NCBI RefSeq assembly: GCF_900100255.1
Contig: NZ_FMTS01000003.1
Coordinates: 186,001-250,000 of the forward strand
DNA: 64,000 nucleotides
From: Asticcacaulis taihuensis
GTDB lineage: Bacteria > Pseudomonadota > Alphaproteobacteria > Caulobacterales > Caulobacteraceae
Direction: 5' to 3'
Shown here: positions 39,180-58,001 of the stretch, in pieces
Position numbering within the stretch: the first letter of the stretch is position 1
Layout of the letters: each line of letters starts with the position of its first letter
Notes under the pieces: model-generated
Database searches by the model: none
Seen by the model: the letters and a program-made list of their open reading frames with translations, nothing else
What the model was told of the DNA's origin: nothing
Made by a program: the position numbers and the translations under genes

Positions 39180-41231
39180 ATGAAACATATTGCCCGCCTG
39201 CTGCTGGCGCTTGCCGTCATTTTCGCCACGCCGGCCCTGGCGCGTGAGCAGATATCGCTGAACGATAACTGGCTGTTTATAAGGGCCGATGTGCCCGAAG
39301 CGAAGAACGCCGATTATCGCGCCGAAAGCTGGCAAGCCATCACACTGCCGCATACCTTCAACGCCGGCGACGCCAATCAGGGCGGCGACACCTCGCGCGG
39401 CGAAAAGGAAGGCGTCTATTACCGCGGGCCGGGCTGGTATCGCCGCCAACTGGAGATAACCCCGGTCGCCGGCCAGCGCTATGTGCTGCAATTCGATGGT
39501 GCGGCCCTGGTGACGGATGCGTGGGTCAATGGGAAAAGCGTGGGCCATCATGAAGGCGGCTATGCGGCCTTCCGCTTCGATATCACCGACGCCCTGAGGG
39601 CGGGCGACAATCTGATCACCGTGCGTGTCGATAATACGCGCGTGCCCCAGGTGGCGCCGCTGACCGGTGATTTCAACGTCTTTGGCGGGCTTTATCGCAC
39701 TGTCTCGCTGATCACCACCGGCGACGTTCATGTCGATCTGATGGATCATGGCGGCTCCGGTGTTTATATGACCACAAAGGCGATCAGTGCTCAGAAGGCG
39801 GAGATCGGTGCACGCATTCTGCTGAAGAACGACAGCGCGCAGGCGGCGAAGATCGCTGTGAAAACGCGCATACTCGATGCCGATGGCAAGGTGGTGGCTG
39901 CGGCGAAAACGATGGCTTCTCTTACCGCCGGGCAGGCCCTGCCGGTCGAGCAGGCGCTGACCGTCCGCCGTCCGCATCTGTGGGCCGGCCGCAAGGACGC
40001 CTATCTCTACAAAGTGGTGGTCGAGGCGGGGAGCGACCGCGTGACCGTGCCGCTGGGCATCCGTACCGTGACGATCGATCCGGACAAGGGCTTCCTGCTC
40101 AATGGCCAGCCCTATCGCATCTATGGCGCCAATATGCAGCAGCCGGGCCGCAAGGGCAAAGGCACGGCGGTCAGCGACGCGGAAATCGACGAGGATATGC
40201 AGATCATGGACGACATGGGCGTTACCGCCCTGCGTCTGGCCCATATGCAGCACCCGCAGCGCGTCTATGACGATGCCGACCACATGGGTATCCTGCTCAC
40301 CACCGAGGTGCCGCTGGTTGACGCGATCACAGCCGGCTCTGCCTTTCAGGATAATGCCGTCGAACAGATGCGTGAATTGATCGCGCAGAACTACAATCAT
40401 CCCTCCGTTGCCCTGTGGGGGCTGGGCAATGAGATTCGCTCGACTGTGCCAGACGCCAATCCGGTGCTGGCCGCCTTGCAGACGACGGCCAAGGCGATGG
40501 ACCCGACGCGGCCGACCGTATATGCCCATTGCTGTCTGGCCGACGATGATGCGATTGCCGGCCACAGCGATGTCATTTCTTATAACCGCTATTTCGGCTG
40601 GTATGGCGACACCTTCGCCGACATGGGCAAATGGGCTGACGCGCTCCATGCCAAGTACCCGAAGCGCATTTTCGGCGTGTCGGAATATGGCGCCGGCGCC
40701 AGCATCCGGCATCAGGAAGACGCGCCCAAGGCCGTGGTGCCGCAAGCCTTCTGGCACCCGGAGCAGTATCAGGCGCTTTACCATGAGGCGAACTGGCGGG
40801 AATTAAAGGCGCGGCCTTACCTGTGGTCGGAGTTCATCTGGGTGGCATTCGATTTTCCATCCTTCCGACGTAATGAAGGTGACCGCCCGGCCATCAATGA
40901 TAAGGGCCTTGTGACCGAAGACCGGCAGACGAAGAAGGACGCGTACTACTGGTATCAGGCCAACTGGTCGGACCGGCTGATGGTTCATATCACCAGCCCG
41001 CGCGATATTCACAAGCGCATCCGCCATGTGAAGGCGAAGGTCTATTCTAACATGGATGAGGTGCGGCTGTCGCTGAACGGCCAGGCTTTAGGGGCGCAGA
41101 AAGTGGTCGATCATATCGCCACCTGGGAGGTCGATCTACGAGACGGCGAAAATGTCGTCGAGGCCTTCGCCGGCAAGGACCTGCACGACCGCGTGGTGTG
41201 GAACTACGAAGGGCCGATAGAAGGGAAGTAA
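39180..41231 (+). CDS. GH2 beta-galactosidase / beta-glucuronidase family
   Basis: A 683-residue exported glycoside hydrolase of family 2. Signal peptide 1-21 (ends PALAR), then the sugar-binding domain (NDNWLFIRADVPEA; the arm YYRGPGWYRRQLEI), an immunoglobulin-like domain (about 195-300) and the TIM barrel with the acid/base glutamate in WGLGNEIRS and the candidate nucleophile in FGVSEYGAGAS. A Big-type beta domain closes the protein. The linkage cut (galactoside, glucuronide or mannoside) cannot be told from sequence. It is preceded by the palindrome at 39099 and followed by a dispersed repeat. Confidence 0.9.
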   Translation: MKHIARLLLALAVIFATPALAREQISLNDNWLFIRADVPEAKNADYRAESWQAITLPHTFNAGDANQGGDTSRGEKEGVYYRGPGWYRRQLEITPVAGQRYVLQFDGAALVTDAWVNGKSVGHHEGGYAAFRFDITDALRAGDNLITVRVDNTRVPQVAPLTGDFNVFGGLYRTVSLITTGDVHVDLMDHGGSGVYMTTKAISAQKAEIGARILLKNDSAQAAKIAVKTRILDADGKVVAAAKTMASLTAGQALPVEQALTVRRPHLWAGRKDAYLYKVVVEAGSDRVTVPLGIRTVTIDPDKGFLLNGQPYRIYGANMQQPGRKGKGTAVSDAEIDEDMQIMDDMGVTALRLAHMQHPQRVYDDADHMGILLTTEVPLVDAITAGSAFQDNAVEQMRELIAQNYNHPSVALWGLGNEIRSTVPDANPVLAALQTTAKAMDPTRPTVYAHCCLADDDAIAGHSDVISYNRYFGWYGDTFADMGKWADALHAKYPKRIFGVSEYGAGASIRHQEDAPKAVVPQAFWHPEQYQALYHEANWRELKARPYLWSEFIWVAFDFPSFRRNEGDRPAINDKGLVTEDRQTKKDAYYWYQANWSDRLMVHITSPRDIHKRIRHVKAKVYSNMDEVRLSLNGQALGAQKVVDHIATWEVDLRDGENVVEAFAGKDLHDRVVWNYEGPIEGK

Positions 41232-43084: not shown

Positions 43085-43435
43085 TCAGGGCTGTTCCGAC
43101 AGGCTGTAGATGCGCGCCATTTCCAGCCAGGTCGAGCCTTCCGGCCCGAAGGGCAGGGGCTTCTGAAAGGTGCGCATCAGGGCATCCCACGCCTGGACAT
43201 CGGGATTATTGGTATCTCGCTGGGCCTTGGTCGCCGGGTCGAAATTGGGCCCTTGCTCCATAATCAGCATCATGCGATCGCCAACCAGCCAGATTTCCAG
43301 GTCGCGGATATCATCGGCGCGGATGGAGTCGGTCACGGCCTGCGGCGGCCCACCCGCGCGGTGCCAGGCTTTATAAGCCTCTATGCCCTCTGAATGGATG
43401 TCGACGGCGAAAACCTTGCGGATCGTGGCGCTCAT
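43085..43435 (-). CDS. RhaM-like L-rhamnose/L-fucose mutarotase
   Basis: A 116-residue protein of the RhaM/YiiL family (COG3254 type), a dimeric ferredoxin-like fold that interconverts alpha and beta anomers of 6-deoxy-L-sugars. Features are FAVDIHSEGIEAYKAWHRAGG, with the early histidine, and LEIWLVGDRMMLIMEQ, the family core strand. The start overlaps the stop of the LacI gene (ATGA), so both are co-transcribed, and the operon is divergent from the epimerase-led operon at 44756. Context with an L-fucose-type pathway suggests L-fucose or L-rhamnose. Confidence 0.85.
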   Translation of the reverse strand: MSATIRKVFAVDIHSEGIEAYKAWHRAGGPPQAVTDSIRADDIRDLEIWLVGDRMMLIMEQGPNFDPATKAQRDTNNPDVQAWDALMRTFQKPLPFGPEGSTWLEMARIYSLSEQP

Positions 43436-44454
43436 TCTGGAATATTCTCCTTGAAGATCGCCTGGACACGGATCGGCATATAGGATTTCACGGTTTCGCC
43501 GCGCACTGTGCGGGCCAGTTGATCGATCGCCTCGCGCGCTTCGACGTGAGGGTTCTGGTCGATTACCGCGTCCATCACCCCATCCAGCAGGAACCTGCGC
43601 GTGTGGTCGGTCAGTTCGTGGCCGATAAAGACAATTTTCTGGTCGCGGCCGGAATCTTCCAGCGCCCTGGCAATGCCGCGATTACCGGCGCCGATATTAT
43701 AGATGCCGGCCAGGTCGGGATATTGCTGGAGCAGGGTACGGGCCTCGCGGTAAGCGGCCTCGTCATCGTCATGCACTTCGCGCAGTTCGACGACCGACAG
43801 GTTCGGATAAGATTCACGCAGAATATGGCGGAAGCCCATTTCGCGTTCCTCATGGCCACGATAGGACAGTGAGCCGGCGAACAGGGCCAGCTTGGCTGGC
43901 GCCTTGGGCAGCAAACGACCGAGCAGATAACCGCTCAGTCGGCCCGCGGCGCGGTTGTCGATGCCGATATAGCCTTCGCGCGGCACATTGGAAATATCGG
44001 AAATCAGGGTGAAGACGAGGGTGCCGGAATTGCGTAACTGGCGCAGGGCTTCACGCACCACCGGATGATCGAGCGCGATGACGCCGACCGCTTTTGAATG
44101 GCCGGAAAGCTTCAGCAGGGCATCGGCCAGGGCGTAAGGATCGAAGCCTTCGGTCATGTGCAGGCGCAACTCGATATCGCCACGATCGGCGCTGATTTCC
44201 TCCAGCGATTTTGCCAGGTTGCGGATGAAGGTGTTGGCGCCATTCGGCAGGATGAAATCGAGCACTACGGGTGCGCGGCTGATCGAGACCTCTCCCGGCA
44301 AAGCGATATAGCCCAGACGCGAGGCCGTCTGGAAAACGATCTCGCGTGTGCGTTCACGCACGCCGGGGCGCTTGTTGAGCACCCGGTCCACGGTGGCGGT
44401 GGAGACGCCCGATTGTCTGGCGATGTCGATCAGGGTGGCGCGGGTGACGGCCAT
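43432..44454 (-). CDS. LacI-family regulator of the sugar operon
   Basis: A 340-residue LacI/GalR regulator. The helix-turn-helix is TLIDIARQSGVSTATVDRVL, followed by the hinge and a type I periplasmic-binding-like effector domain (GYIGIDNRAAGRLSGYLLG; GIYNIGAGNRGIARAL). ATG 44454 is chosen because GGAGG lies about 10 bases upstream and it precedes the helix-turn-helix by only a few residues; a frame to 44520 is leader. It is divergent from the operon at 44756 and coupled with the mutarotase, so it is the local regulator candidate. No classical CG-centred LacI operator is evident in the gap. Confidence 0.9.
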   Translation of the reverse strand: MAVTRATLIDIARQSGVSTATVDRVLNKRPGVRERTREIVFQTASRLGYIALPGEVSISRAPVVLDFILPNGANTFIRNLAKSLEEISADRGDIELRLHMTEGFDPYALADALLKLSGHSKAVGVIALDHPVVREALRQLRNSGTLVFTLISDISNVPREGYIGIDNRAAGRLSGYLLGRLLPKAPAKLALFAGSLSYRGHEEREMGFRHILRESYPNLSVVELREVHDDDEAAYREARTLLQQYPDLAGIYNIGAGNRGIARALEDSGRDQKIVFIGHELTDHTRRFLLDGVMDAVIDQNPHVEAREAIDQLARTVRGETVKSYMPIRVQAIFKENIPE

Positions 44455-44755
44455 GGGATGCGCTCCTCCTTGGGATTCGCAACCCGGCGCAGGGGTGCGG
44501 TCTTTGACATCAAAATACATCGAATGCAGTCGGTAGAGTCAAGCTCTTTATGAGGCTGATGCATCCGTCTCATTAGGCGGTCAAATGTCACGCGACGCTA
44601 ATCATATGATATTTAACAATTAAAATTTAAATAGCCCGCGCAACGTTAAAAATTACACATATGATGTATGATGATGCATTGACATCAAGTCTGATCAGTA
44701 TATGACTGGTCAACAGCAAAAAAATATATCGCGTACAGGGATATGGAACTGGCTC
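44455..44755. other. Divergent intergenic region with promoter and operator
   Basis: 301 bases between the LacI gene and the epimerase-like gene. Notable items are the 10-bp palindrome ATCATATGAT (44601-44610), an AT-rich stretch 44612-44640, the TATGATGAT box (44667-44675) and a promoter (44679-44706). Near the LacI end AATACATCGAATGCA (44514-44528) is a partial match to the box. An open frame starting at 44702 would begin inside the -10 and is rejected. Confidence 0.6.
44667..44706 (+). promoter_or_regulatory. Promoter with overlapping TATGATGAT box
   Basis: TATGATGAT (44667-44675), three bases, then TTGACA (44679-44684), 16-bp spacer and TATGAC (44701-44706). Transcription would begin near 44713, leaving a leader of about 43 bases before ATG 44756. 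The same box-3 bases-TTGACA layout occurs on the minus strand before the TBDR at 57429. Confidence 0.65.
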
Positions 44756-45931
44756 ATGGCTGAACTTTTCAAGCAGACCTATTCGCGTCGTGATCTGGCG
44801 GCGCATACCGGTCAGTTGTCGCAATTCGCCGGTGTGCGTCTGATGACACTGGGAGATGGTGTCGAGCGCGGTGTACGGATGCTGGAATTCCGCACCGGTT
44901 CAGGCCTGCGCTTCACGGTGCTGCTTGATCGCGCTATGGATATTGCCGATTGTGAACATAACGGCCGGGCGGTCGGTTGGCATTCCCCTTCGGGTTTCAA
45001 ACATCCGGGTTTGCATGAGTATGAGGGCGAGGGCGGCCTCGGCTGGTTCCGCTCCTTTTCCGGCCTGATGGTGACCTGCGGCCTCGATCATATCCTTTTC
45101 ATGGATGACGATGCCGCCGATCAGTATCACTACGGCGCCCGCAAGACCGTCTCTTCGTCCCTGCATGGCCGCATCGGCACCATACCGGCGCGTCTGACCG
45201 GCTATGGCGAGCGCTGGAATGGCGATGAATGCACGCTGTGGGCAGAAGGCGTGGTCCAGCAATCGACCGTTTTCGGCGAGGATCTGCACCTGATCCGGCG
45301 GATCGAGGCGAAGCTCGGCTCTAACGACATCCATCTGCATGACCGCGTGGTCAATCATGGATTCTATCGCACGCCGCATATGTATTGCTACCATATCAAT
45401 GTCGGCCATCCGGTTCTGGCTGAAGGTTCGCGTTATGTGGCGCCGATCCGTGATGTCATCTGGGCTGCCCACGCTGATGATTACCGGAAGCAGGGCGTCG
45501 GCTATCATACCCTGTCCGAACCAAAACTGAACTTCCACGAACAGGTCTGGCAGCATGATATGCAGGCCGATGCGGCGGGCAGGGTCAATGTCGCTTTGGT
45601 CAATGAAAACATTGGCTTCGGTTTTGAAGTTGAGGTTCTGAAAGAACAGTTTCCGGCCATGTACGAATGGCAGAATCTCCAGGCCGGTCACTACGCGCTA
45701 GGGATTGAACCATCCACCAATCATGTTTTTGGCAAGCCATTTGCGAAAGAGCGCGGCGAACTCATCTGGCTCGAACATGGCGATGAACGCCACTACGACA
45801 GTGTCTTCCGTATCTTGCCGGATAGTGGGACTGTGGCGGATGCGGTTCGCCGTATCGAAGCGGTAAGCCATCAGCCAGCCGAGGAATACCCCGCGCCATC
45901 GGGCAGTTTTCCGCCGATCGGGGGCCGCTGA
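44756..45931 (+). CDS. DUF4432 aldose-1-epimerase-like protein
   Basis: A 391-residue protein of the galactose-mutarotase-like beta-sandwich superfamily (DUF4432 type). Supporting stretches are MLEFRTGSGLRFTVLLDRAMDIADCEHNG split over the first 90 residues, SFSGLMVTCGLDH, the two-histidine region SSSLHGRIGT and PHMYCYHINVGHPVL, and LGIEPSTNHVFG near the end. Family members probably equilibrate sugar anomers, but some may act on other sugar forms. ATG 44756 is chosen because the promoter's start site lies upstream of it. It leads a long operon with 1-base TGATG overlap to the SDR. Cytoplasmic, no signal peptide. Confidence 0.82.
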   Translation: MAELFKQTYSRRDLAAHTGQLSQFAGVRLMTLGDGVERGVRMLEFRTGSGLRFTVLLDRAMDIADCEHNGRAVGWHSPSGFKHPGLHEYEGEGGLGWFRSFSGLMVTCGLDHILFMDDDAADQYHYGARKTVSSSLHGRIGTIPARLTGYGERWNGDECTLWAEGVVQQSTVFGEDLHLIRRIEAKLGSNDIHLHDRVVNHGFYRTPHMYCYHINVGHPVLAEGSRYVAPIRDVIWAAHADDYRKQGVGYHTLSEPKLNFHEQVWQHDMQADAAGRVNVALVNENIGFGFEVEVLKEQFPAMYEWQNLQAGHYALGIEPSTNHVFGKPFAKERGELIWLEHGDERHYDSVFRILPDSGTVADAVRRIEAVSHQPAEEYPAPSGSFPPIGGR

Positions 45932-46677
45932 TGCAGGGCCGGACGATCCTCTATACCGGCGCGGCTGGCGGTCTGGGGCTGCAAACCACGCTGAACTTTC
46001 TGTCGCGCGGCGCCACCGTAGTGGCCGTCGATCATGACGACACGAAGATTGCGGCCCTGACTTCAGCGGCTTCGGCTGTCACCAGTGGCCGCTTGCTGGT
46101 GACACGTTCGGACATGTCTGATCTCGAAGGGTTTCGCACCGCTATCCGGGCGCGCCGGGAAGAGACGGGCGGCTTCGATGTGGTCATCAATAATGCCGCC
46201 ATCTATCCCTCGAAATCTTTTGAGGAATTTACCGTCGAAGAGCATCAGACGGTCCAGCGCATCAATGTTGATGCCGGCATTGTCGCCGTGCAGGAAGCCT
46301 TGCCGGGCATGAAGGCGAAGGGGTTCGGCCGCATCATCAATATTGCCTCGATCACGCTTTCGGGCGGCTGGCCGAATATCTACCCTTACGTCGCCTCAAA
46401 GGGTGCTCTGATCGGCCTGACCCACGCCTGGGCGCGCGAATTTGGCCCCTATGGCATCACCGTCAATGCCATTTCGCCCGGTGCCTTCCCGACCGATGCC
46501 GAGGCCATCAATCCCGATCCCGAAGGTTATAACCGCCACGTCCTGGCCCAGCAGGCGATCAAGCGCCGTGGCCATGTCGGCGATATCGCCAACGCCATCG
46601 CCTTCCTGAGCTCCGAAGACACAGGTTTCATCACTGGCCAGACGCTGAACGTCAATGGCGGCTGGGTGATGGATTAA
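45931..46677 (+). CDS. SDR dehydrogenase of the CoA-type sugar operon
   Basis: A 248-residue classical short-chain dehydrogenase. Cofactor motif TGAAGGLG (about 9-16), NNAA (about 89-92), catalytic Ser in NIASITLSGG and Y-x-x-x-K as YVASK; DHDD after the second strand suggests NAD rather than NADP. It probably oxidises a sugar or sugar acid in this operon; a 6-deoxy-L-sugar 1-dehydrogenase is one option, but the substrate is not proven. Overlaps the epimerase stop by one base, and lies 27 bases before the CoA-transferase. Confidence 0.87.
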   Translation: MQGRTILYTGAAGGLGLQTTLNFLSRGATVVAVDHDDTKIAALTSAASAVTSGRLLVTRSDMSDLEGFRTAIRARREETGGFDVVINNAAIYPSKSFEEFTVEEHQTVQRINVDAGIVAVQEALPGMKAKGFGRIINIASITLSGGWPNIYPYVASKGALIGLTHAWAREFGPYGITVNAISPGAFPTDAEAINPDPEGYNRHVLAQQAIKRRGHVGDIANAIAFLSSEDTGFITGQTLNVNGGWVMD

Positions 46678-46704
46678 AACAGATTCATAAGGACTTGATT
46701 TCAC

Positions 46705-47898
46705 ATGGGTATCTTAAGCGGCATTCGCGTTCTCGATTGCTCCATCGCCATGGCCGGGCCGTTCGCGGCGCAGCGCATGGGCGATATGGGGGCGGACGTT
46801 ATCAAGGTGGAACCGACCACGGGGGAATGGCAGCGCCATGCCCCGGCCGGGGGCGCCTCGGGCAACGAGATCAATGTCTCCTTCCTGTCGCTGAACCGCA
46901 ACAAGCGGTCACTGGCGGTCGATCTCAAATTACCGGAAGGCAAGGCTCTGCTGCTCGATCTCGTCAAATCGGCCGATGTTTTTCTACAGAATTATCGTCC
47001 TGGCGTGGCGGCGCGATTAGGTGTCGATTACGAGACGCTTTCGGCCATCAATCCGAAGCTGATCTATGTCTCGATGTCGGGCTATGGCGAGGACGGTCCC
47101 TACAAGAACTATCCCGGCCAGGATTTGCTGCTGCAATCCATGTCGGGCGCCATGATGTCGGCCGGATCGAAGGATACGCCGCCATCGCCGGCCGGCCAGT
47201 ATCTCGTCGACGCAATCACCGCCTATACCGCCTTTGAAGGCGCGCTGGCGGCGCTGTTCCACCGTGAACGCACGGGTGAGGGGCAAAAGGTGGAAGTCAA
47301 TATGTTAGATGCCATCACCACCATCCAGATGCAGGAACTGTCGGTCTTCACCGTTGGCAAAAAGCCACAGACGCGTTCGGTCGAGCCGCACGCCCATAGC
47401 TATATCCGCGCCCCCTATGGTGTCTTCAAGACGAAGGACAGCTATATCACCATCGCCATGGCCAATCTGAAAAAGCTGGGTGAACTGATCAATGAGCCCT
47501 TCTTCGCCGATCTGGAGGACCAGACGGATTCGTGGACCTACCGAGATGAAATCTACGCCATGACGCGCATCAAGCTGGAGGAAAGGACGACCCAGGAATG
47601 GCTCGATCTGTTCCGTCCGGTCGATATCTGGTGCGGCCCGGTCTATGGCTATGAAGATGTCGTCAATGATCCGCAGATCAAGCATAACGGCACCTTTGTC
47701 GAATATGACCATCCGACCGAAGGCCGTGTGAAGACGCCTGGCTTCCCGATCAAGTTTTCCAAGACGCCTTCAACCGTTGATCGCGGCGCCCCGCGCGTGG
47801 GTGAGCACACACGCGAAATCCTGTCCGCGGCGGGTAAATCCGATGCCGAGATCGAGGCCTTGTTGGCCAGCGGTGCAGTGAAGCAGGCAAATGTCTAA
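46705..47898 (+). CDS. Class III CoA-transferase (CaiB/BaiF family)
   Basis: A 397-residue family III CoA-transferase, which moves CoA between carboxylic acids through an enzyme-bound anhydride and thioester. N-terminal GIRVLDCSIAMAGPFAAQ, then NRNKRSLAVDLK, QNYRPGVAARLG and the catalytic-aspartate region YPGQDLLLQSMSG, with EGQKVEVNMLDA later. Length is as expected. CoA-transferases are unusual in sugar operons; here it stands between an SDR and an enoyl-CoA hydratase, suggesting that a sugar-derived acid is activated as a CoA thioester. The stop overlaps the next gene by 8 bases. The CoA donor is unknown. Confidence 0.9.
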   Translation: MGILSGIRVLDCSIAMAGPFAAQRMGDMGADVIKVEPTTGEWQRHAPAGGASGNEINVSFLSLNRNKRSLAVDLKLPEGKALLLDLVKSADVFLQNYRPGVAARLGVDYETLSAINPKLIYVSMSGYGEDGPYKNYPGQDLLLQSMSGAMMSAGSKDTPPSPAGQYLVDAITAYTAFEGALAALFHRERTGEGQKVEVNMLDAITTIQMQELSVFTVGKKPQTRSVEPHAHSYIRAPYGVFKTKDSYITIAMANLKKLGELINEPFFADLEDQTDSWTYRDEIYAMTRIKLEERTTQEWLDLFRPVDIWCGPVYGYEDVVNDPQIKHNGTFVEYDHPTEGRVKTPGFPIKFSKTPSTVDRGAPRVGEHTREILSAAGKSDAEIEALLASGAVKQANV

Positions 47899-48994
47899 AG
47901 TCAAATACAGGGGCCTGACCTGGGATCATCCGCGCGGGTTCAATGCGCTGGATGCGGCAGCGAAGGCTACGCCTGAACTGGGCCTGTCCTGGGATAAGCA
48001 TTCCCTGGAGGGTTTTGAGACGCATCCCATCGCCGATCTTTGCGAACAGTATGACCTGGTAGTGCTCGATCATCCGCATATCGGCGAGGCGGTGGCGGGT
48101 GATTGCCTGCGGCCGCTGGAGGATACCTTCACGCCGGAAGAGATCGTTGCCTGGCCGCGGGATTGCATCGGACCATCGCTGAAAAGCTACCAATTCGCCG
48201 GCAAGCATTGGGCGCTGCCGCTTGATGCCGCCACACAGGTCATGGCCTGCCGGGGCGGCATCGTTCCCCCTCAGACCTGGGATGAGGTGCTGGCTTTCGA
48301 TGGGCCGGTGGCCTTGTCATTGGCCGGGCCCCACGCGGCGCTCAGTTTTCAGTCGATCTGCGCGGCTCTGGGCGAACGTCCGGCGATGAAAGATCCGGAC
48401 GTGCTGATCAGCGAGGCGGTGGGCCTGACCGCGCTCGATATCATGCAGCGCCTGACCGATACATCGCCTTTGAGTGTGCGCGAAAAGAACCCGATCGGCA
48501 TTCTTCAGCATATGGTCGATCATGAGGATGTGGCTCTTTGCCCGCTGATCTATGGCTATGTGAACTATGCTAATGATCTGACCTTCGCCAATGCGCCCTG
48601 TAGCGCCGGAGGCATAGGTTCGACGCTTGGCGGTACGGGTATCGGTATCTCGAAGCGGTGCGAAATCACGCCCGCATTGCTTGATCACCTGCGCTGGCTG
48701 ATGTCTCCGCAGACACAGATCGGCTTCATTCCGGCTCATGATGGCCAGCCGTCGCTGCGGGCCGCCTGGCTGGATGCCGTGGTCAATGCGCGCTGGGGCG
48801 ATTTTTATCGAAACACGTATCAAACGCTGGAAACCGCCTATGTCCGGCCGCGTCATAATCGCGCCATCGCCTTCCAGACGGCCGCGTCAGAAGCCATCCG
48901 CGACACGCTTTATAAGCAGCGGTCACACGATCAACTATTGACTCAATTGCAAACCCTCTATGCCGGGACACGGGTTCCGGGTTCGGAGCGCTAA
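47891..48994 (+). CDS. Cytoplasmic solute-binding-protein-like protein
   Basis: A 367-residue protein resembling family 1 extracellular solute-binding proteins: DLVVLDHPHIGEAV, the hinge-like AGKHWALPLDAATQVMACR, then WDEVLAFDGPVALSL and GGIGSTLGGTGIGIS. It has no signal peptide, no lipobox and no membrane segment, and no ABC permease or ATPase is coded in the window. It overlaps the CoA-transferase by 8 bases and the enoyl-CoA hydratase by one (TAATG), so it is made in step with two CoA enzymes. A transport role is therefore unlikely; a cytoplasmic ligand-binding, chaperone or enzyme role is possible but unproven. Confidence 0.75.
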   Translation: MSKVKYRGLTWDHPRGFNALDAAAKATPELGLSWDKHSLEGFETHPIADLCEQYDLVVLDHPHIGEAVAGDCLRPLEDTFTPEEIVAWPRDCIGPSLKSYQFAGKHWALPLDAATQVMACRGGIVPPQTWDEVLAFDGPVALSLAGPHAALSFQSICAALGERPAMKDPDVLISEAVGLTALDIMQRLTDTSPLSVREKNPIGILQHMVDHEDVALCPLIYGYVNYANDLTFANAPCSAGGIGSTLGGTGIGISKRCEITPALLDHLRWLMSPQTQIGFIPAHDGQPSLRAAWLDAVVNARWGDFYRNTYQTLETAYVRPRHNRAIAFQTAASEAIRDTLYKQRSHDQLLTQLQTLYAGTRVPGSER

Positions 48995-49764
48995 TGTCTG
49001 AAGAACTGTTATTCGAGGTGGATGGCCATGTCGCCGTCATCACCATCAACCGTCCGGCGAAGCTCAACTCGATGACGCCGGAAATGGCCTATGCCCTCGA
49101 AGCCGCCGTGGCCGAGTGCAACAAGAGCAATACCATCCGCTGCGTAATCGTCACCGGCGCCGGCGAACGCGCCTTCTGCGCCGGGTCTGATATCCGCACG
49201 CTCGACGACTACGCCACGCCGTGGGAGTTCCGTAATCGCGGCGATTATTGCGACGCCATCCGCCTGTGCCTGAAGCCGACCATAGCCGCGGTCAATGGCT
49301 ATGCCTTCGGCGGCGGTCTGGAAACGGCCATGAGCTGCGATATCCGCATCGCCTCGTCAAATGCGCAGTTTGCCGCCCCGGAAATCAAGCTCGGCTGGAT
49401 CGGCGGCGGCGGCATGGCGGCGGGGCTGGTCCATTCGATCGGCGCCTCCAATGCCTCGCTGATGATCCTGACGGGCGATGCCATCACCGCGCAGAAGGCC
49501 GAGCAATGGGGGCTGGTCAGCGAGGTCTGCGAACCGGCGGACCTGATGCCCCGCGCCCGCGCCATCGCCGAAACCATCGCCAGCCGCGCCCCCATCGCCG
49601 CAGAGACCGGCAAGCTCAATCTGCGCGCTGCCCATACCATGCCCTATGAAAAGGCTGTGGAATATGAGCGCGATCTGCAAACCATCTGCTTTGCCACCGA
49701 AGATGCCCAGGAAGGCCGCGCCGCCTTCAAGGAAAAACGTGCGCCGGTATTCAACAGGCGTTAG
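48994..49764 (+). CDS. Enoyl-CoA hydratase/isomerase family protein
   Basis: A 256-residue crotonase-fold enzyme. The CoA-binding and oxyanion-hole region is visible as AGERAFCAGSDIR (about 55-67) and YAFGGGLETAMSCDIRIA (about 102-119); GWIGGGGMAAGLVHSIG follows, where the usual PxxGGxxxL pattern and a catalytic glutamate are changed (APEIKLGWIGGGG). The product may be a hydratase, dehydratase (carnitinyl-CoA type) or isomerase. It sits after the CoA-transferase and solute-binding-like gene in one tightly coupled block, so it probably acts on the CoA thioester made there. Confidence 0.88.
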   Translation: MSEELLFEVDGHVAVITINRPAKLNSMTPEMAYALEAAVAECNKSNTIRCVIVTGAGERAFCAGSDIRTLDDYATPWEFRNRGDYCDAIRLCLKPTIAAVNGYAFGGGLETAMSCDIRIASSNAQFAAPEIKLGWIGGGGMAAGLVHSIGASNASLMILTGDAITAQKAEQWGLVSEVCEPADLMPRARAIAETIASRAPIAAETGKLNLRAAHTMPYEKAVEYERDLQTICFATEDAQEGRAAFKEKRAPVFNRR

Positions 49765-49791
49765 AAGAAGAAAAACCGAGAGATTCCCTGT

Positions 49792-50763
49792 ATGACCCGT
49801 CCCAAAGTTCTGCTCACCCGCCCATGGCCCGAAGCCGCCCAAGCCTATATGCAGGCGCATTACGATACGACGGTCAACGACAGCGGCAAGCCGCTGACAC
49901 CCGAGCAGCTCAAGGCGGCGATGACGGAATACGACGCCCTGTGCCCGACCGTCACTGACAAGCTGACGGCGGAAATCTTCGCCACGCCGAATGCGCGGGT
50001 AAGGATGATCGGTAATTTCGGCGCCGGCTACGAGCATATCGATATCGAGGCGGCGAAAAAGGCCGGGATCGTTGTGTCCAACACGCCCGATGTGCTGACC
50101 GAGGCCACCGCCGACATCGCCCTGATGCTGATGCTGATGGCGTCTCGCCGCGCCTCCGAAGGCGAGCGCCAGTTGCGCGAAGGCGGCTGGAAGGGCTGGG
50201 GCACCACAGCGCTTATGGGGCAATCCCTCGAAGACAAGACCCTGGGCCTGGTCGGTTTCGGCCGCATTGCCCAGGTGACGGCGCACAAGGCACGGACGGC
50301 GCTCGGCATGAAAATCGCCTATTTCAGCCGCCGTCAAACCACAGCCGATATCGAAACAGCGCATGAAGCGCGCTATGTTGGTAGCCTCGAAGACCTGGCG
50401 GCACAGTCTGATGTGTTGTCGCTGCATACGCCGGGCGGACCGGAAACCTATCATATGGTCAATGCGCGTCTGCTGGGGCTGATGAAGCCGACCGCGATCC
50501 TGATCAATACGGCGCGCGGCTCGGTGGTCAATGAGGAGGATCTGGCGGCGGCGCTGAAAGCCGGCACCATCTGGTCGGCAGGGCTTGACGTCTATGAACG
50601 CGAACCGGTGGTCAATCCGGCCCTGCTGCCGCTCAATAATGTCGTCCTGTTGCCGCATCTCGGCAGCGCCACCATCGAGACGCGCAACGCCATGGGGATG
50701 CGCGCGGCGAAAAATGTCGATCAGTTCTTCGCGGGGGAGCCCGTCGGTGACCGGGTCGCTTGA
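49792..50763 (+). CDS. D-2-hydroxyacid dehydrogenase (glyoxylate/hydroxypyruvate reductase type)
   Basis: A 323-residue NAD(P)-dependent D-isomer hydroxyacid dehydrogenase. FGAGYEHIDIEAAKK and TPDVLTEATADIALML belong to the substrate domain, GLVGFGRIAQ is the cofactor motif, and the catalytic trio is seen as NTARGSVV (Arg), YEREPVVN (Glu) and LPHLGSAT (His). Close to GyaR/GhrB-type glyoxylate and hydroxypyruvate reductases. The next gene is a glycerate kinase, so hydroxypyruvate to D-glycerate is a sensible step. Its stop lies inside the start of that kinase gene. Confidence 0.9.
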   Translation: MTRPKVLLTRPWPEAAQAYMQAHYDTTVNDSGKPLTPEQLKAAMTEYDALCPTVTDKLTAEIFATPNARVRMIGNFGAGYEHIDIEAAKKAGIVVSNTPDVLTEATADIALMLMLMASRRASEGERQLREGGWKGWGTTALMGQSLEDKTLGLVGFGRIAQVTAHKARTALGMKIAYFSRRQTTADIETAHEARYVGSLEDLAAQSDVLSLHTPGGPETYHMVNARLLGLMKPTAILINTARGSVVNEEDLAAALKAGTIWSAGLDVYEREPVVNPALLPLNNVVLLPHLGSATIETRNAMGMRAAKNVDQFFAGEPVGDRVA

Positions 50764-51547
50764 AGCGGTTGAAGTGTGCGTTCAGGGCTGGCTAAAGTCA
50801 GCCCGAAAACCTTTTGTTTTGGGCATCTGCGGCGCGCAGGGCTCCGGCAAATCAACCTTGAGCGACAGACTGGCCGCGCATCTGGAAGGCGAGGGGCTGA
50901 AGGTTGCGCTCCTGTCGCTGGATGATCTCTATCTGGCGCCGGAAGCCCGGCCGGTCGATATCTCACCTTTGTTCGCCACGCGCGGTGTACCGGGCACGCA
51001 TGATGTCGCCTTGGGAGAACGCATATTCGCCAGTCTGAAAGCCGGACAACCGACACGCCTGCCGCGTTTCGACAAGGCCAGTGACCGGCCTTTCACGGAA
51101 GAGAACTGGCCGGAAATCGCCGCGCCGGACGTGGTTATATTTGAAGGCTGGTGCGTCGGGGCGAGGGCGCAATCTGACACAGAGCTGACTGAGCCGGTCA
51201 ATGATCTGGAACGCGAGGACGACGGCGCCTGGCGGCGGGCGGTGAATGACTCGCTGAAAGGGCCTTACGCTGATCTGTTCCGTCATATCGACCGGCTGAT
51301 CCTGCTGGCCGCCCCCGGTTTCGAAATCGTGCGCGACTGGCGGATCGAGCAGGAAAATGCCTTGCGCGCGCGCCTGTCAGCCGAAGGGCGTACTGGCGCG
51401 AAGGTGATGAGTGATGAAGAAGTCGGTCGGTTTATCCAGTATTACGAGCGCCTGACCCGCCATATCCTGCAAACCATGCCCGCCTATGCCGACCTGACCT
51501 TGCAACTTGATTCATCTCGGAATATGAAACCAAGTCCGAAATACTGA
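50747..51547 (+). CDS. D-glycerate kinase, GLYK/P-loop type
   Basis: A 266-residue P-loop kinase of the plant/yeast-type D-glycerate 3-kinase group. Walker A is GAQGSGKST (residues 29-37 of the product), followed by LLSLDDLYL, the DDxY signature, and TRGVPGTHD; VIFEGWCVGARA is the usual second motif. GTG 50747 is chosen because GGGGGAG is about 8 bases upstream and the frame before it overlaps the dehydrogenase gene. It overlaps that gene by 17 bases. Family members make 3-phosphoglycerate from D-glycerate, linking this operon to central metabolism. Confidence 0.85.
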   Translation: MTGSLEAVEVCVQGWLKSARKPFVLGICGAQGSGKSTLSDRLAAHLEGEGLKVALLSLDDLYLAPEARPVDISPLFATRGVPGTHDVALGERIFASLKAGQPTRLPRFDKASDRPFTEENWPEIAAPDVVIFEGWCVGARAQSDTELTEPVNDLEREDDGAWRRAVNDSLKGPYADLFRHIDRLILLAAPGFEIVRDWRIEQENALRARLSAEGRTGAKVMSDEEVGRFIQYYERLTRHILQTMPAYADLTLQLDSSRNMKPSPKY

Positions 51548-51568
51548 CCAGACTGCGTTGAGACACAC

Positions 51569-52699
51569 ATGATCATTTCCGCCGCCACCGATTATCGCGA
51601 AGCCGCCAAACGCAAGCTGCCGCGCTTCCTGTTCGATTATCTCGACGGCGGCTCCTATGCCGAAATGACCCTGCGCAACAATGTGTCGGACCTATCGTCC
51701 CTGGCCCTGCGCCAGCGCATCCTGAAGAACGTCGCCGACCTGTCGCTGGAAACCGAACTGTTCGGCGAGAAGATGGCCATGCCTGTGGGGCTGGCGCCGG
51801 TGGGCTTAGGCGGCATGTATGCCCGCCGCGGTGAGGTGCAGGTAGCTAGAGCCGCGAAGAAGGCGCGCATTCCCTACATTATTTCAACGGTTTCGTTGTG
51901 CCCTCTTGAGGAAATCGTTGAGAAGTCCGGCTGTGATATCTGGTTCCAGCTTTATGTGCTGAAGGATCGTGGCTTCATGAAGCACGCGCTCGAACGGGCG
52001 CAGGCACTCGGCGTCACCAAGCTGGTCTTCACCGTCGATATGCCGGTGCCAGGGGCGCGCTACCGCGACAAGCATTCCGGCATGAGCGGCGATTTTGGTC
52101 CGATCCGCCGCATCATCCAGGCGATGATGAAGCCGGAATGGGCCTATGATGTCGGCCTGCGCGGCACGCCGCACGATCTGGGGAATGTGTCGAAATATCT
52201 CGGCAAGGCCACGGGGCTGGAGGACTATATCGGCTGGCTGGGCGCCAATTTCGACCCCAGCATCAACTGGTCCGATCTCGAATGGATCCGCGACATGTGG
52301 AAAGGGCCGATGATCATCAAGGGCATCCTCGATCCAGAAGACGCGAAGGACGCGGTGAAATTCGGCGCTGACGGCATCGTGGTCTCCAACCACGGCGGCC
52401 GTCAGCTCGATGGCGCGCTCTCGACCTGCAAGGCCTTGCCGGCCATCGCCGATGCGGTGGGCGACGACCTGACCATACTGGCGGATTCCGGTATCCGTAC
52501 AGGTCTGGACGTGGTGCGGATGCTGGCATTGGGGGCGAAAGGCGTGCTGCTGGGGAGGGCCTATATCTACGCCCTGGCAACGCATGGCGAGGCGGGCGTC
52601 ACCAATCTGCTGGGCCTGATCGAAAAGGAAATGCGCACGGCCATGGCGCTCACCGGCGTGAAAACCATCGCCGAAATCGATCGCAACCTGCTGGCCTGA
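51569..52699 (+). CDS. lldD: FMN-dependent L-lactate dehydrogenase
   Basis: A 376-residue FMN alpha-hydroxyacid oxidoreductase of the LldD type, giving pyruvate and passing electrons to the quinone pool. The N-terminus has [16 protein letters not shown], typical of Lld[17 protein letters not shown] and the catalytic histidine in [10 protein letters not shown] follow. Length fits. L-lactate is the expected product of FAH-type cleavage of 2,4-diketo-3-deoxy-L-fuconate, so this enzyme would complete the neighbouring 6-deoxysugar pathway, although glycolate-type substrates are possible. It is the last gene of the operon and ends at a hairpin shared with the convergent FAH gene. Confidence 0.9.
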
Positions 52700-52709: not shown

Positions 52710-52731
52710 GCCTCCGGATTGATCCGGAGGC
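52710..52731. terminator. Terminator hairpin between lldD and the FAH gene
   Basis: Perfect 10-bp stem GCCTCCGGAT/ATCCGGAGGC with almost no loop; TTTTTT follows at 52738-52743 on the plus strand. Mainly ends the rightward operon, and possibly also the leftward FAH transcript. Confidence 0.75.
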
Positions 52732-52740: not shown

Positions 52741-53586
52741 TTATGCAGCGCCTACGGTCTGCTTCTGGGTGCCCAAACCTTCGATGCCCAGTTCCATGAC
52801 ATCGCCGACATTGAGGTAGATCGGGTCCGGCTTCTGGCCAAGGCCGACGCCCGGCGGGGTGCCGGTCGAGATCACGTCGCCCGGATGCAGCGACATGAAC
52901 TGCGAGAGGTAATGGACCAGGAAGGCAGGCTTGAAGACCATGGTCGACGTCGAGCCATTCTGGAAGCGCTTGCCGTTGACGTCCAGCCACATGTGCAGGT
53001 TATTGACATCGCCGGCCTCGTCCTTGGTCACCAGCCAGGGCCCGATCGGGCCGAAGGTGTCGCAGCCCTTGCCCTTGTCCCAGGTGCCGCCGCGCTCGAT
53101 CTGGAAGTTGCGTTCCGAAACGTCATTGATGGTGCAGTAACCGGCCACATAGTCCAGCGCTTCGGCTTCGGACACATAGGACGCCTTCTTGCCGATAACG
53201 AGGCCCAGTTCGACCTCCCAGTCGAGCTTGGTCGAGCCGCGCGGCTTCAGCACCTCGTCATTGGGGCCGACGATGGCTGAGGTCGCCTTCATGAACAGGA
53301 CAGGCTCGTCCGGCACCGGCAGGTTGCTCTCGGCGGCGTGGTCGGCATAGTTGAGGCCGATGCAGATGAACTTGCCGACGCGACCGACGCAGGGGCCATA
53401 GCGCGAACCGGCCGGGGCGAGGGGAAGCGTTGACGGATCGATGGCGGCGATCTTCACCAGGCCCTCGGCGGAGAGCACGTCGCCGGCGATATCATCGACC
53501 ACGCCTGAGAGGTCGCGGATCTGGCCTTCGGCATCGAGGATACCGGGTTTTTCAGAGCCCGACGGGCCGAAGCGGAGCAGTTTCAT
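52741..53586 (-). CDS. FAH-family 2,4-diketo-3-deoxy-L-fuconate hydrolase (probable)
   Basis: A 281-residue fumarylacetoacetate-hydrolase-family enzyme. The core has ICIGLNYADHAAES and the metal site DWEVELGLVIGK with NDVSERNFQ, then DVISTGTPPGVGLG. It is close to enzymes splitting 2,4-diketo-3-deoxy-L-fuconate or -rhamnonate into pyruvate and L-lactate. Next to it are the SDR expected to form the diketo acid and the L-lactate dehydrogenase. ATG 53586 gives the normal N-terminus (MKLLRFG); an open frame to 53634 runs into the repeat and is rejected. Ureidoglycolate lyase or acylpyruvase activity remains possible. Confidence 0.85.
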   Translation of the reverse strand: MKLLRFGPSGSEKPGILDAEGQIRDLSGVVDDIAGDVLSAEGLVKIAAIDPSTLPLAPAGSRYGPCVGRVGKFICIGLNYADHAAESNLPVPDEPVLFMKATSAIVGPNDEVLKPRGSTKLDWEVELGLVIGKKASYVSEAEALDYVAGYCTINDVSERNFQIERGGTWDKGKGCDTFGPIGPWLVTKDEAGDVNNLHMWLDVNGKRFQNGSTSTMVFKPAFLVHYLSQFMSLHPGDVISTGTPPGVGLGQKPDPIYLNVGDVMELGIEGLGTQKQTVGAA

Positions 53587-53619
53587 TGGGGAGGAATCCT
53601 TCAAGTATATTAAAGCAAG

Positions 53620-53680
53620 ATACCCCACCACCACTCGCTTCGCTCATGGTCCCCCTCCCCAGTAAACTGGGGAGGTACAA
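53620..53680. repeat. Dispersed hairpin repeat, copy B (inverted)
   Basis: Reverse-strand copy of the element at 41241-41300, lying between the FAH gene and the upstream SDR, that is inside a probable operon. On the minus strand it starts TGTACCTCCCCAG, forms CCTCCCCAG/CTGGGGAGG with a 4-nt loop and ends GTGGTGGTGGGGTAT. The stem is kept while the loop and the middle differ from copy A. Confidence 0.8.
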
Positions 53681-53725
53681 AGGTGCGGCTTGCGCTGTCG
53701 AGTTTATGGTCCCAGGGGCTTGCCC

Positions 53726-54451
53726 CTAGTTTAACCAGCCGCCATCGATAATGTGTGCCTGGCCGGTCGTAAAGCTGGATTCGTCGGAAGCGAGATAAAC
53801 GGCGAAGGCGGCCAGTTCTTCTGGTGTGCCGAGGCGGCCGGTGGGCTGGCGTGACAGGAACATGGCGCGGCCCTTTTCATAGTCGCCGGTGTCGCGCATC
53901 CGCTGCTGAAGCGAGGGCGTGTCAATGGTGCCGGGGCAGAGGGCGTTGCAGCGGATACCCTGCGCCACAAAATCGGCGGCGACCGATTTGGTGAGGCCCA
54001 CCACGGCGGCCTTGGAGGCGCCATAGGCCAGACGATTGGCCACGCCCTTGAAGGCGGCGACGCTTGCCATATTGATGATCGAGCCGCATTTGCGTTCCAG
54101 CATCTTGGGCAGGAAAGCCTGGATGGTGTGGAACATGGCGGTCACATTGATCGAGAAGCTGAAGTTCCACGCGGCTTCGTCGGTGGTCAGCACCGTGCCG
54201 GCATGAACATAGCCGGCGCAGTTATAGAGCACGTCGACCTGCGGGAATTCGGCGGCCAGGGTCTTGATGGCGGCCGGATCGGTGGCATCGAGCTGGCGGC
54301 AGATCGCCCCTTCCAGACCCTCCAGAAATTCAAGCTTTACGTCGGTGGCGATAACGGTGGCACCCTCGGCGATAAAGGCTTCCGCGGCGGCCCGGCCCAT
54401 GCCCTGGCCGGCGGCGGTTATAAAGGCAGTCTTGCCGGTAAGGCGTCCCAT
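53726..54451 (-). CDS. SDR, probable 2-keto-3-deoxy-L-fuconate dehydrogenase
   Basis: A 241-residue short-chain dehydrogenase. TAAGQGMGRAAAEAF is the cofactor motif, ATDVKLE points to NAD, then NCAGYVHAGTVL, Ser in NMASVAAF and YGASK as the Y-x-x-x-K. The pattern is close to 2-keto-3-deoxy-L-fuconate dehydrogenase of Xanthomonas and the related BDH2/DHRS6 group. It would supply the 2,4-diketo acid for the FAH protein coded next. ATG 54451 is preferred to 54463 because GGAG lies 6 bases upstream; the TATGATG box overlaps its promoter. Confidence 0.85.
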   Translation of the reverse strand: MGRLTGKTAFITAAGQGMGRAAAEAFIAEGATVIATDVKLEFLEGLEGAICRQLDATDPAAIKTLAAEFPQVDVLYNCAGYVHAGTVLTTDEAAWNFSFSINVTAMFHTIQAFLPKMLERKCGSIINMASVAAFKGVANRLAYGASKAAVVGLTKSVAADFVAQGIRCNALCPGTIDTPSLQQRMRDTGDYEKGRAMFLSRQPTGRLGTPEELAAFAVYLASDESSFTTGQAHIIDGGWLN

Positions 54452-54466
54452 AAATGGCTCCATTAC

Positions 54467-54483
54467 ATAATATGTATGATGAA
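54467..54483 (-). promoter_or_regulatory. TATGATG regulatory box before SDR gene
   Basis: The 17-mer ATAATATGTATGATGAA (plus strand) is identical to the one at 62523-62539. On the minus strand its TATTAT could be the -10 element of the SDR promoter, so binding would block transcription. It ends 16 bases before ATG 54451. Confidence 0.65.
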
Positions 54484-54584
54484 TTATTTTAGAAAAGACC
54501 TGTCTCTAAGTCAACCCCCAAACCCGCAAGTGATATTTAATCTCCTGCGGCGCCAAAGCTTACGGGTGAAGGGACGCGTCCCTT

Positions 54585-54620
54585 CAAAAAAGACCCGCCG
54601 CTTCCGGAGAAGGGCGGGTT
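54585..54620 (-). terminator. Terminator of the TBDR gene
   Basis: On the minus strand ACCCGCC pairs with GGCGGGT (54613-54619 with 54593-54599), followed by C and six T (54591-54586). A palindrome GAAGGGACG/CGTCCCTTC lies just beyond (54568-54585). Confidence 0.75.
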
Positions 54621-54635
54621 AAGGGGCCTCTGTCA

Positions 54636-54668
54636 CCGGACCTGTAAAACGGGTGAATACAGGTCCGG
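54636..54668 (-). terminator. Second hairpin downstream of the TBDR gene
   Basis: Perfect 11-bp stem CCGGACCTGTA/TACAGGTCCGG with an 11-nt loop, between the TBDR stop and its terminator. No T-run; it may protect the 3' end of the mRNA. Confidence 0.55.
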
Positions 54669-54705
54669 ACAATTACGCAACAGACAGCAGGTCGGGGGAG
54701 AAAGC

Positions 54706-57429: not shown

Positions 57430-58001
57430 GATTTCCTTCCTTGGTCGCCCCCTTATGCGAGGGCTGATGTCCTGACACTATTTCATGGTAATATGTGTGT
57501 CAAATGATCATCATATGTCCGACAATATGGCGTTTTGGGAAATTTAACCCAGGAAGAGTGGAAATAAGACAATGCAGGGCAGGCCCTGCCGGAGGCAAGG
57601 GCGGACTCACCCTTTGAAAGATGTCCTGAGTGCGTTTTCAACTCTCTGTATTCAATTGCTTTTTATGTTACGATTTTAAAAGGCCGCAGGTCGGGATCAT
57701 GATTTCAAATACGAAAATCGGCTGTCCGATGCGGCTTTTATATATTTTAGCGCATTTGCCTCATGTCGGCGACTAAAAAAGAGGTGTATGTCGATGACGC
57801 CAAAACCCTCTGCAAGGGCGTGTTTTTAAGGGGAATTATCATTTCTATGAATTCCCGCCAGGATTTATCCTCGAAATGTAAATGACAGAAAATTTGTGAC
57901 CAAATGATCACATCTGTGATTTTAACATATATAAATACATCATTTTTTGATTGAATTTGATTTATTATCAAATATATTGTCTGAGTTATGTTGTCGGTTT
58001 A
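57430..58001. other. Long AT-rich intergenic region before the TBDR gene
   Basis: About 570 bases between the TBDR start and the MFS terminator. It contains the TBDR promoter and box (57475-57515) and two similar sites, CAAATGATCATCATATGT at 57501 and CAAATGATCACATCTGT at 57901, exactly 400 bp apart. The second lies in a GTGACCA/TGATCAC near-palindrome. The only open frame (57747-57971, minus) has an AT-driven composition and no ribosome site, so I do not call it. A small RNA is possible but not supported. Confidence 0.55.
57475..57515 (-). promoter_or_regulatory. TBDR promoter with TATGATGAT box
   Basis: On the minus strand TATGATGAT (57515-57507) is followed after three bases by TTGACA (57503-57498), a 17-bp spacer and TAGTGT (57480-57475). 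The spacing of box to -35 is the same as at 44667-44684. Confidence 0.6.

Follow-up and report, generated by a model that had tools for sequence, protein, structure and literature searches.

The window analysed here is a stretch of 64,000 nucleotides from the Asticcacaulis taihuensis genome (contig NZ_FMTS01000003.1, positions 186,001 to 250,000), and its positions 44756-52699 carry, on the forward strand, eight co-directional open reading frames (ORFs), all confirmed by the ORF listing of the window (Table 1). These genes encode a DUF4432 aldose-1-epimerase-like protein, a short-chain dehydrogenase (SDR1), a CaiB-type coenzyme A (CoA)-transferase (hereafter CaiB), a protein with a solute-binding protein fold (SBP-like protein), a crotonase-fold enoyl-CoA hydratase relative (ECH), a D-2-hydroxyacid dehydrogenase (HADH), a P-loop kinase and the L-lactate dehydrogenase LldD. 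The four stop/start overlaps along the run (1, 8, 1 and 17 bases) are exactly those described in an initial annotation made from the sequence alone; the gaps measure 27, 27 and 21 bases, which keeps the lower end of the 21-28 bases given there and shortens the upper one. LacI and RhaM genes, reported in the same annotation as divergent, indeed lie upstream on the minus strand, and the RhaM protein exceeds the cut-off of its Pfam family. The start of the DUF4432 gene is fixed by homologues, 70-82% identical in nine relatives, whose alignments begin at the position of 44756, the longest ORF opening at 44702. The operon probably ends at LldD, because a hairpin, a possible terminator for both convergent operons, separates this gene from the convergent one; terminator-like sites as a class were not enriched in the scan (7 found versus 8.8 expected in shuffles).

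Table 1. Features in and around the eight-gene operon of the window, with the xyl operon found elsewhere in the same genome. Pfam and NCBIfam cut-offs served as thresholds of family membership.
Feature	Position	Strand	Evidence
RhaM-family mutarotase	43085-43435	-	PF05336 61.5 bits, cut-off 23.4
LacI-family regulator, divergent	43432-44520	-	PF00356, PF13407
DUF4432 (PF14486) aldose-1-epimerase-like protein	44756-45931	+	PF14486 330.8 bits, cut-off 32.5
SDR1, short-chain dehydrogenase	45931-46677	+	PF13561 174.8 bits; PF00106 also over cut-off
CaiB-type class III CoA-transferase	46705-47898	+	PF02515 363.8 bits, cut-off 23.3
SBP-like protein, CUT1-type solute-binding fold	47891-48994	+	predicted structure and fold search
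ECH, crotonase-fold enoyl-CoA hydratase relative	48994-49764	+	PF00378 204.7 bits, over cut-off
HADH, D-2-hydroxyacid dehydrogenase (glyoxylate/hydroxypyruvate reductase-like)	49792-50763	+	PF02826 and PF00389 over cut-offs
PRK-like P-loop kinase	50747-51547	+	weak family matches; longest ORF opens at 50585
LldD, FMN L-lactate dehydrogenase	51569-52699	+	NF033901 685.3 bits, cut-off 550; PF01070 over cut-off
9-pair hairpin	52710-52731	both strands	within the 41-base gap between LldD and the convergent gene
2,4-diketo-3-deoxy-L-rhamnonate hydrolase relative	52741-53595	-	NF053535 448.8 bits, E 7.3e-135, cut-off 500; longest ORF to 53634
SDR2, candidate 2-keto-3-deoxy acid 4-dehydrogenase	53726-54463	-	SDR family matches, none named for the step
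MFS transporter	58069-59373	-	PF07690 150.1 bits
Amidohydrolase, L-fuconolactonase-like	59361-60188	-	PF04909; NF052480 154.1 bits, cut-off 400
Aldo/keto reductase, candidate sugar 1-dehydrogenase	60192-61142	-	PF00248 176.4 bits
Enolase-superfamily sugar-acid dehydratase relative	61328-62467	-	PF13378 156.1 bits; talarate/galactarate dehydratase model 170.6 bits, cut-off 500
xyl operon, same genome (L174)	G000 C17:72000-90000		XylE-like transporter (601.1 bits, cut-off 608), IlvD/EDD, SMP-30 lactonase, D-xylose 1-dehydrogenase over cut-off, XylX, LacI

The eight-gene arrangement is above chance and not a local oddity, because its order recurs identically in 5 of the 24 other genomes of our genus sample (25 genomes, own included) and because the first five genes, DUF4432-SDR-CaiB-SBP-ECH, stand consecutively in 44 of 80 loci from across lineages. 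These 80 loci, with flanks of at most 10 kb, are the best 80 of 337 relatives fetched via the SBP-like protein, whose own count is therefore given by construction; gene counts derive from tblastn maps with identity cut-offs set by us (simple ORF clustering miscalled several high-GC genes), and 'consecutive' denotes neighbours among the mapped genes. CaiB, the SBP-like gene and ECH follow one another in order in 75 loci, CaiB being consecutive with the SBP-like gene in 76 and the latter with ECH in 79, while DUF4432 and SDR1 are consecutive in 53; ECH is missing at one locus, L104. Within the genus this trio is all-or-none: close CaiB (81-100%), the SBP-like protein and close ECH (82-100%, E 1e-60 or better) occur in the same 6 of 25 genomes, and the other 19 hold either CaiB paralogues only (at most 42%; 17 genomes) or none (2 genomes). 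The hosts of the 80 loci include Caulobacterales, sphingomonads, rhizobia, Azospirillum, Peristeroidobacter (Gammaproteobacteria) and Pseudonocardia. The initial annotation had staked its model on the gene order being conserved elsewhere, and we find that the module spans two phyla and several orders. HADH, the kinase and LldD, present in only 24, 25 and 7 of the 80 loci, are thus lineage add-ons to the five-gene core. In the nearest relative (L039, 9281-11173), the SBP-like protein and ECH share one uninterrupted frame of ~630 codons, which could reflect a natural fusion or an error of assembly.

The company kept by the module is that of sugar operons. A LacI-type regulator is present in 30 of the 80 loci, RhaM in 23, and Gfo/Idh and TIM-barrel isomerase genes in 23 each; the best matches of the one LacI-type copy tested are gluconate/idonate regulators (326.6 bits, under the cut-off of 400). 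Three annotated loci (L045, L047 and L048) carry LacI, DUF4432, SDR, CaiB, SBP and ECH genes beside Gfo/Idh, TIM-barrel isomerase and sugar ATP-binding cassette (ABC) transporter genes, with a 58-61% relative of the window LacI divergent from the module. Plasmids carry relatives as well (145 records, mostly rhizobial, with up to 63% identity), among them a Streptomyces plasmid with DUF4432, SDR, CaiB, SBP, ECH and an FAH-family gene. The rhizobial ABC solute-binding protein encoded downstream of ECH was modelled with a view to its ligand, but its best PDB match is 25% identical and none of the 50 listed exceeds 27%, too little to name one. For the TIM-barrel isomerase a PDB search gave no match at E 0.001. 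In 13 of the 80 loci (L075, L078, L087, L098 and others) an M24 peptidase-like protein and a split sugar ABC transporter are encoded divergently from CaiB-SBP-ECH; a 7-bladed lactonase gene, also in 13 loci, is tied to this group, in which the role of an M24 protein in a sugar route is puzzling.

Among the module enzymes, LldD alone exceeded the cut-off of an equivalog model in NCBIfam scans, and the functions proposed for the core enzymes draw on family membership, residues and context. DUF4432 is a probable mutarotase for a sugar dehydrogenase, and SDR1 is proposed as a candidate sugar 1-dehydrogenase, its NCBIfam matches including glucose and xylose 1-dehydrogenases, with none over cut-off among the best 25 of 224. 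By its domain and its aspartate CaiB belongs to the class III (CaiB/FRC) CoA-transferases, for which transfer activity is predicted: Asp169, which we take from FRC and CaiB to be the catalytic residue, is kept in 75 of 77 aligned rows, the other two being gaps, and the aspartate recurs in each of the 12 distant CaiB matches from the nine loci checked. In ECH, Glu110 and Glu130, presumably the counterparts of the catalytic pair E144/E164 of the rat enzyme, are invariant in 80 of 80 rows, are kept in the distant copies checked and align with the glutamates of 5zai and other solved (de)hydratases, although no named equivalog is reached (best 223.1 bits, cut-off 400; none over cut-off among the best 25 of 73). 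As judged from these alignments, CaiB and ECH keep the residues expected for CoA transfer and hydration/dehydration.

That CaiB, the SBP-like protein and ECH act instead on a non-sugar acid (carnitine-like, aromatic or short-chain) entering along with the sugar is improbable. The closest named CaiB models in NCBIfam are indeed succinate-glutarate, formyl-CoA and mesaconate transferases, but none of the seven transferase models that match reaches its cut-off, the L-carnitine CoA-transferase model scoring 160.2 bits against 413; moreover, the genes beside the module in the various lineages encode sugar dehydrogenases, sugar transporters, sugar-acid dehydratases and sugar-type regulators, and the SBP-like protein has the fold of sugar-binding proteins.

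This fold emerged from structure prediction. At the sequence level, the SBP-like protein stays under the Pfam cut-off (SBP_bac_8, 20.3 bits, cut-off 27) and a search against the PDB returned nothing significant, whereas its predicted structure (predicted local distance difference test 94.3, predicted template modelling (TM) score 0.93) gave 1028 matches at E 0.001 or better in a fold search. The best PDB match is 5iai (TM 0.80 by query length, 19% identity), and the 50 listed matches range over TM 0.67-0.80 by query length at 14-19% identity. The protein thus shares the fold of CUT1 ABC sugar-binding proteins (MalE, SmoF, 5iai), from which it differs by this low identity, by a gene placed beside CaiB and not beside permeases, and by the lack of a recognisable signal peptide on inspection, few residues preceding strand 1. 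In a crude scan of hydropathy along the 35 residues from the match start onwards, the median was 0.95 and the maximum 2.03 (L078), compared with 2.2 in two exported controls. The protein therefore seems to be a cytoplasmic sugar-binding-type protein. Out of 15 polar or aromatic positions checked, which had been picked for conservation in an earlier alignment, 12 are invariant in 81 of 81 rows, and H322 is kept in 73. Our preferred guess is that the SBP-like protein binds the sugar acid in readiness for transfer. Alternatively, it may be an enzyme in its own right, as is the SBP-fold protein MqnA, catalysing an extra step after which ECH and CaiB would finish the product; this possibility, compatible with the other readings, strikes us as somewhat unlikely. 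So many invariant positions would be much for a mere binder, and a protein that lacks a recognisable signal peptide fits such a role, yet the 50 listed structural matches are binding proteins or, by title, maltose-binding protein fusions, with no SBP-fold enzyme among them.

Clues to the reaction come from what the module travels with and what it travels without. The known non-phosphorylating routes of sugar breakdown dehydrate free aldonates by Fe-S (IlvD/EDD), altronate-type or enolase-type enzymes. A XylX-like (FAH-family) gene accompanies the module in 37 of the 80 loci, nine of which also hold HADH. Its copy at L077 is 52% identical to XylX of the xyl operon of this genome, and the copy at L046 matches 9kkt, named only as an FAH-family protein, at E 6.9e-125 and the 2-keto-3-deoxy-D-arabinonate dehydratase 2q18 at E 1.1e-16. 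The fetched flanks of these 37 loci never contain IlvD/EDD; in 31 of them an enolase-type dehydratase is missing too, and an aldehyde dehydrogenase gene is present in 15 of the 37. The set resembles the Weimberg pathway (XylB-XylC-XylD-XylX-XylA) in its SDR sugar dehydrogenase, in the XylX-like enzyme and, for 15 of the 37, in the aldehyde dehydrogenase, but holds CaiB, SBP and ECH and no IlvD/EDD; a Weimberg cluster, in which IlvD/EDD, XylX and a sugar dehydrogenase stand together, is not what we find, and the window operon has neither of the first two. At L104, where ECH is absent, a MaoC-type hydratase is encoded upstream of CaiB (8230-8706). In the carnitine dehydration of Escherichia coli, the class III CoA-transferase CaiB and the crotonase CaiD are encoded together. 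The simplest reading, by analogy with CaiB and CaiD acting on carnitine, is that CaiB and ECH would fill the dehydratase position, because the XylX-like partner is present without IlvD/EDD in the cluster. The proposed cycle would be the same in both systems, an acid exchanging with a product CoA ester and then being dehydrated; the module differs in its sugar-operon context, in the SBP-like gene between the two enzymes and in a CaiB far below the carnitine model.

The same evidence bears on carbon-carbon bond cleavage, in which the crotonase would act by retro-Claisen or retro-aldol chemistry and split the CoA ester of a 3-keto or 3-hydroxy sugar acid into glycolyl-CoA and a shorter acid for HADH, the kinase and LldD. 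This alternative is the nearest to the model of the initial annotation; crotonase-fold enzymes can perform such cleavages, HADH and the kinase do occur in 24 and 25 of the 80 loci, and the Gfo/Idh and TIM-barrel isomerase pair of 23 loci could make keto sugars. We nevertheless consider it unlikely, given that both glutamates of the water-adding type are invariant throughout, that a MaoC hydratase appears where ECH is absent, that a XylX-like enzyme would need a 2-keto-3-deoxy acid and that HADH is absent from 56 of the 80 loci. We had at first favoured looking at retro-Claisen cleavage, which became less convincing in view of the invariant glutamates and of the XylX-like partner.

We therefore favour, with a probability of roughly 0.45, a scheme in which the conserved module (DUF4432, SDR1, CaiB, SBP-like protein and ECH) degrades a sugar via CoA thioesters, CaiB and ECH working as a CoA-cycling dehydratase. 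DUF4432 would supply the right anomer, which SDR1 would oxidise to the lactone, and a lactonase that varies between lineages would open the lactone to the aldonate. The incoming aldonate would receive CoA from the product thioester through CaiB; ECH would remove water across C2-C3, forming the enol of a 2-keto-3-deoxyacyl-CoA; and CaiB would then reclaim the CoA, releasing the 2-keto-3-deoxy acid. CaiB and ECH, with the SBP-like protein as their cytoplasmic sugar-binding-fold partner, would thus act in the manner of CaiB/CaiD and substitute for the Fe-S dehydratase XylD. The XylX-like dehydratase would take the acid in many relatives, in some of them together with an aldehyde dehydrogenase, leading to a Weimberg-type end at 2-oxoglutarate. 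For the window, salvage of C2/C3 acids would fall to HADH and the kinase, and oxidation of the L-lactate from an adjacent rhamnose/fucose-type route to LldD. The initial annotation had a sugar oxidised, its acid activated by CoA transfer, water eliminated or the chain cleaved by the crotonase, and the products leaving through the last three enzymes. A sugar operon with a plausibly CoA-activated acid on which the crotonase acts is upheld, and of the two crotonase reactions elimination is the better supported, through the invariant glutamates and the XylX-like partner; the outlet through HADH, the kinase and LldD is not supported, these genes being found in a minority of loci and a XylX-like partner in 37.

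Several observations weigh against the dehydratase scheme. It explains neither the presence of HADH and the kinase nor the use of CoA, and we know of no aldonate dehydratase that needs CoA. An enolase-type dehydratase is present in 6 of the 37 XylX-like loci. A free-acid dehydratase could also act from elsewhere in the genome, since a PF20629 gene (altronate/galactarate dehydratase family) occurs in all 12 whole genomes of XylX-like loci tested; by contig coordinates none of its 17 places falls in the fetched stretches, the one place numerically in range, in the L070 genome, lying on another contig, as the fetched stretch there encodes an ABC ATPase. The absence of a dehydratase from the cluster is thus real, yet could be made good from elsewhere. 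The window operon itself is without a XylX-like gene, the only match in the genome being XylX (53%), and its own LacI shows no gluconate-type signal in NCBIfam. No lactonase is conserved with the core module, and the one aldehyde dehydrogenase with many matches bears little resemblance to 2,5-dioxovalerate dehydrogenase (120.8 bits, cut-off 750). A MaoC-type hydratase also occurs at L106 (8201-8659), where ECH is present, and CaiB is missing at L108, L119, L122 and L127. The distance correlations within the CaiB-SBP-ECH trio (0.80-0.83) are not special and reflect common descent of the clusters, not a particular bond, because all 21 gene pairs lie at 0.51-0.87. Finally, L013, L015 and L016, with SBP-like genes at 35-36% near sugar-acid enzymes, lack CaiB in the fetched stretches; these loci may do without the transferase or use one encoded elsewhere.

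As to the sugar, a pentose is our best guess for loci with a XylX-like gene, because PMC11199699 terms the branch from 2-keto-3-deoxypentonate to 2-oxoglutarate pentose-specific. In this genome D-xylose is an unlikely substrate of the module, since a separate xyl operon exists. Hamamelose was dropped, the matching publications listed including no catabolic pathway by title, and the data favour none of inositol, apiose, aceric acid and O-methyl sugars, which we also weighed. Glycoside hydrolase (GH) genes of GH3, GH43, GH78 alpha-L-rhamnosidase and GH2 type surround the operon (window 6445-10559 and 31853-41231, the GH78 gene at 31853-35041), pointing to a plant-wall glycan as the sugar source. 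Another possibility is that the CoA steps serve to remove or rework a substituent of an unusual plant-wall sugar, such as a branched or O-methyl group, and that ordinary sugar-acid enzymes take over afterwards. This would account for the need of CoA, and beta-helix glycosidase/lyase-like genes (17 of the 80 loci), GH2 (12 of the 80) and RhaM would fit complex pectin-like glycans; it is quite unlikely in view of the 23 Gfo/Idh loci, mostly rhizobial, none of which has a beta-helix or GH2 gene.

Distant relatives extend the association of CaiB with the SBP-like protein. The phylum sample (398 genomes) gave 22 SBP-like matches in 18 genomes, own included, with CaiB within the locus of ~4 kb in 19 of the 22 (own copy included; absent in L159-L161). 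In the class sample (385 genomes), nine genomes had matches; besides our own, five gave nearly full-length matches at 35-38% identity and three gave weak, partial ones. Among the five, two carry CaiB in the locus (L004 and L006, identical to L153 and L154). Combining the samples, CaiB lies close by in 19 of 25 distinct SBP-like genes. The distant modules adjoin ECH (L165, L166, L167), enolase-type dehydratases, lactonase-like proteins, SDRs, the diketo hydrolase and sugar ABC transporters; L166 (SBP ~33%) keeps together SDR, DUF6786, SBP, two CaiB, ECH, aldehyde dehydrogenase and GH2 genes. At L150, L151, L155 and L156, distant SBP-like genes each stand with two adjoining CaiB homologues, possibly a two-transferase or heteromeric version. 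A hybrid module at L169 (8287-12629) combines a distant SBP (38%) with close ECH (78%) and CaiB (74%) and a XylX-like gene (59%), and looks as if the SBP had been exchanged.

We tentatively propose, as a broader idea held with less assurance than the scheme for the module itself, that bacteria have a class of CoA-thioester sugar catabolism in which CaiB, a crotonase and a sugar-binding-fold protein of the cytoplasm together make up an aldonate dehydratase that cycles CoA, with distant versions, some with two CaiB, serving different sugars in Pseudomonadota and Actinomycetota, and in which a periplasmic binding fold was recruited as an enzyme subunit. A CoA-cycling dehydratase, if true, would be a different solution to aldonate dehydration that joins sugar and fatty-acid-like chemistry; genes that at present carry the labels CoA transferase, solute-binding protein and enoyl-CoA hydratase would gain a function, and the solute-binding fold a new role. 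The gene set occurs in soil and plant-associated bacteria. A study of deoxyribose/deoxyribonate oxidation reportedly describes a sugar-acid route that passes through CoA esters and uses a beta-keto acid cleavage enzyme. The statement of the initial annotation that no described sugar route has this set agrees with our searches of the open-access literature, in which, judged by titles and abstract beginnings and covering longer result lists in part, no description of the module was found. The passages of PMC9007349 that were checked do not mention it. We thus regard the module as a conserved CoA-linked sugar-acid gene set, uncharacterised as far as found, with the dehydratase cycle as the mechanism best supported, short of proof.

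The add-on genes of the window fit other tasks. HADH scores 281.5 bits with a glyoxylate reductase model, under the cut-off of 455. The kinase passes MeaB (27.2 bits, cut-off 23.1), falls just under the PRK cut-off and has weaker pantothenate-kinase and uridine-kinase-like matches; among its 5 Pfam and 12 NCBIfam matches there is no glycerate kinase model, so that the glycerate kinase named initially is reduced to a P-loop kinase, and glycerate 3-kinase is an assumption of ours. The two genes are consecutive in 23 of the 80 loci and fit C2/C3 acid salvage, the identity of the kinase being a guess.

LldD more likely serves the adjacent minus-strand route, burning its L-lactate, a view based on chemistry and position: that route should yield L-lactate, and it adjoins. 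The minus-strand genes at 52741-62467, among which a TonB-receptor-like gene was recognised by eye, fit a complete-looking non-phosphorylated route of the L-rhamnose/L-fucose type, though no model reaches its cut-off. According to PMC11199699, the non-phosphorylated L-rhamnose/L-fucose diketo route (LRA5/LRA6, FucF/FucG) yields pyruvate and L-lactate. The likeness to this pathway lies in the relatives of its hydrolase, SDR, lactonase and dehydratase; unlike the module, the pathway uses no CoA, and its genes here stand on the opposite strand beyond the hairpin. The diketo hydrolase and SDR2 are consecutive in 5 of the 80 loci. The hydrolase is found in the locus or genome of all six LldD loci tested (the full seven except L064) and in all seven module genomes tested, within ~10 kb of the locus in six by coordinates, assuming the same contigs, and far away in L126. 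Its presence alone does not discriminate or predict LldD, because five module loci without LldD still have the hydrolase in the genome.

Apart from these sugar genes, the window holds at 26753-31834 an Lhr-type helicase gene ~1 kb from that of an ATP-dependent DNA ligase, likely a DNA repair cluster.

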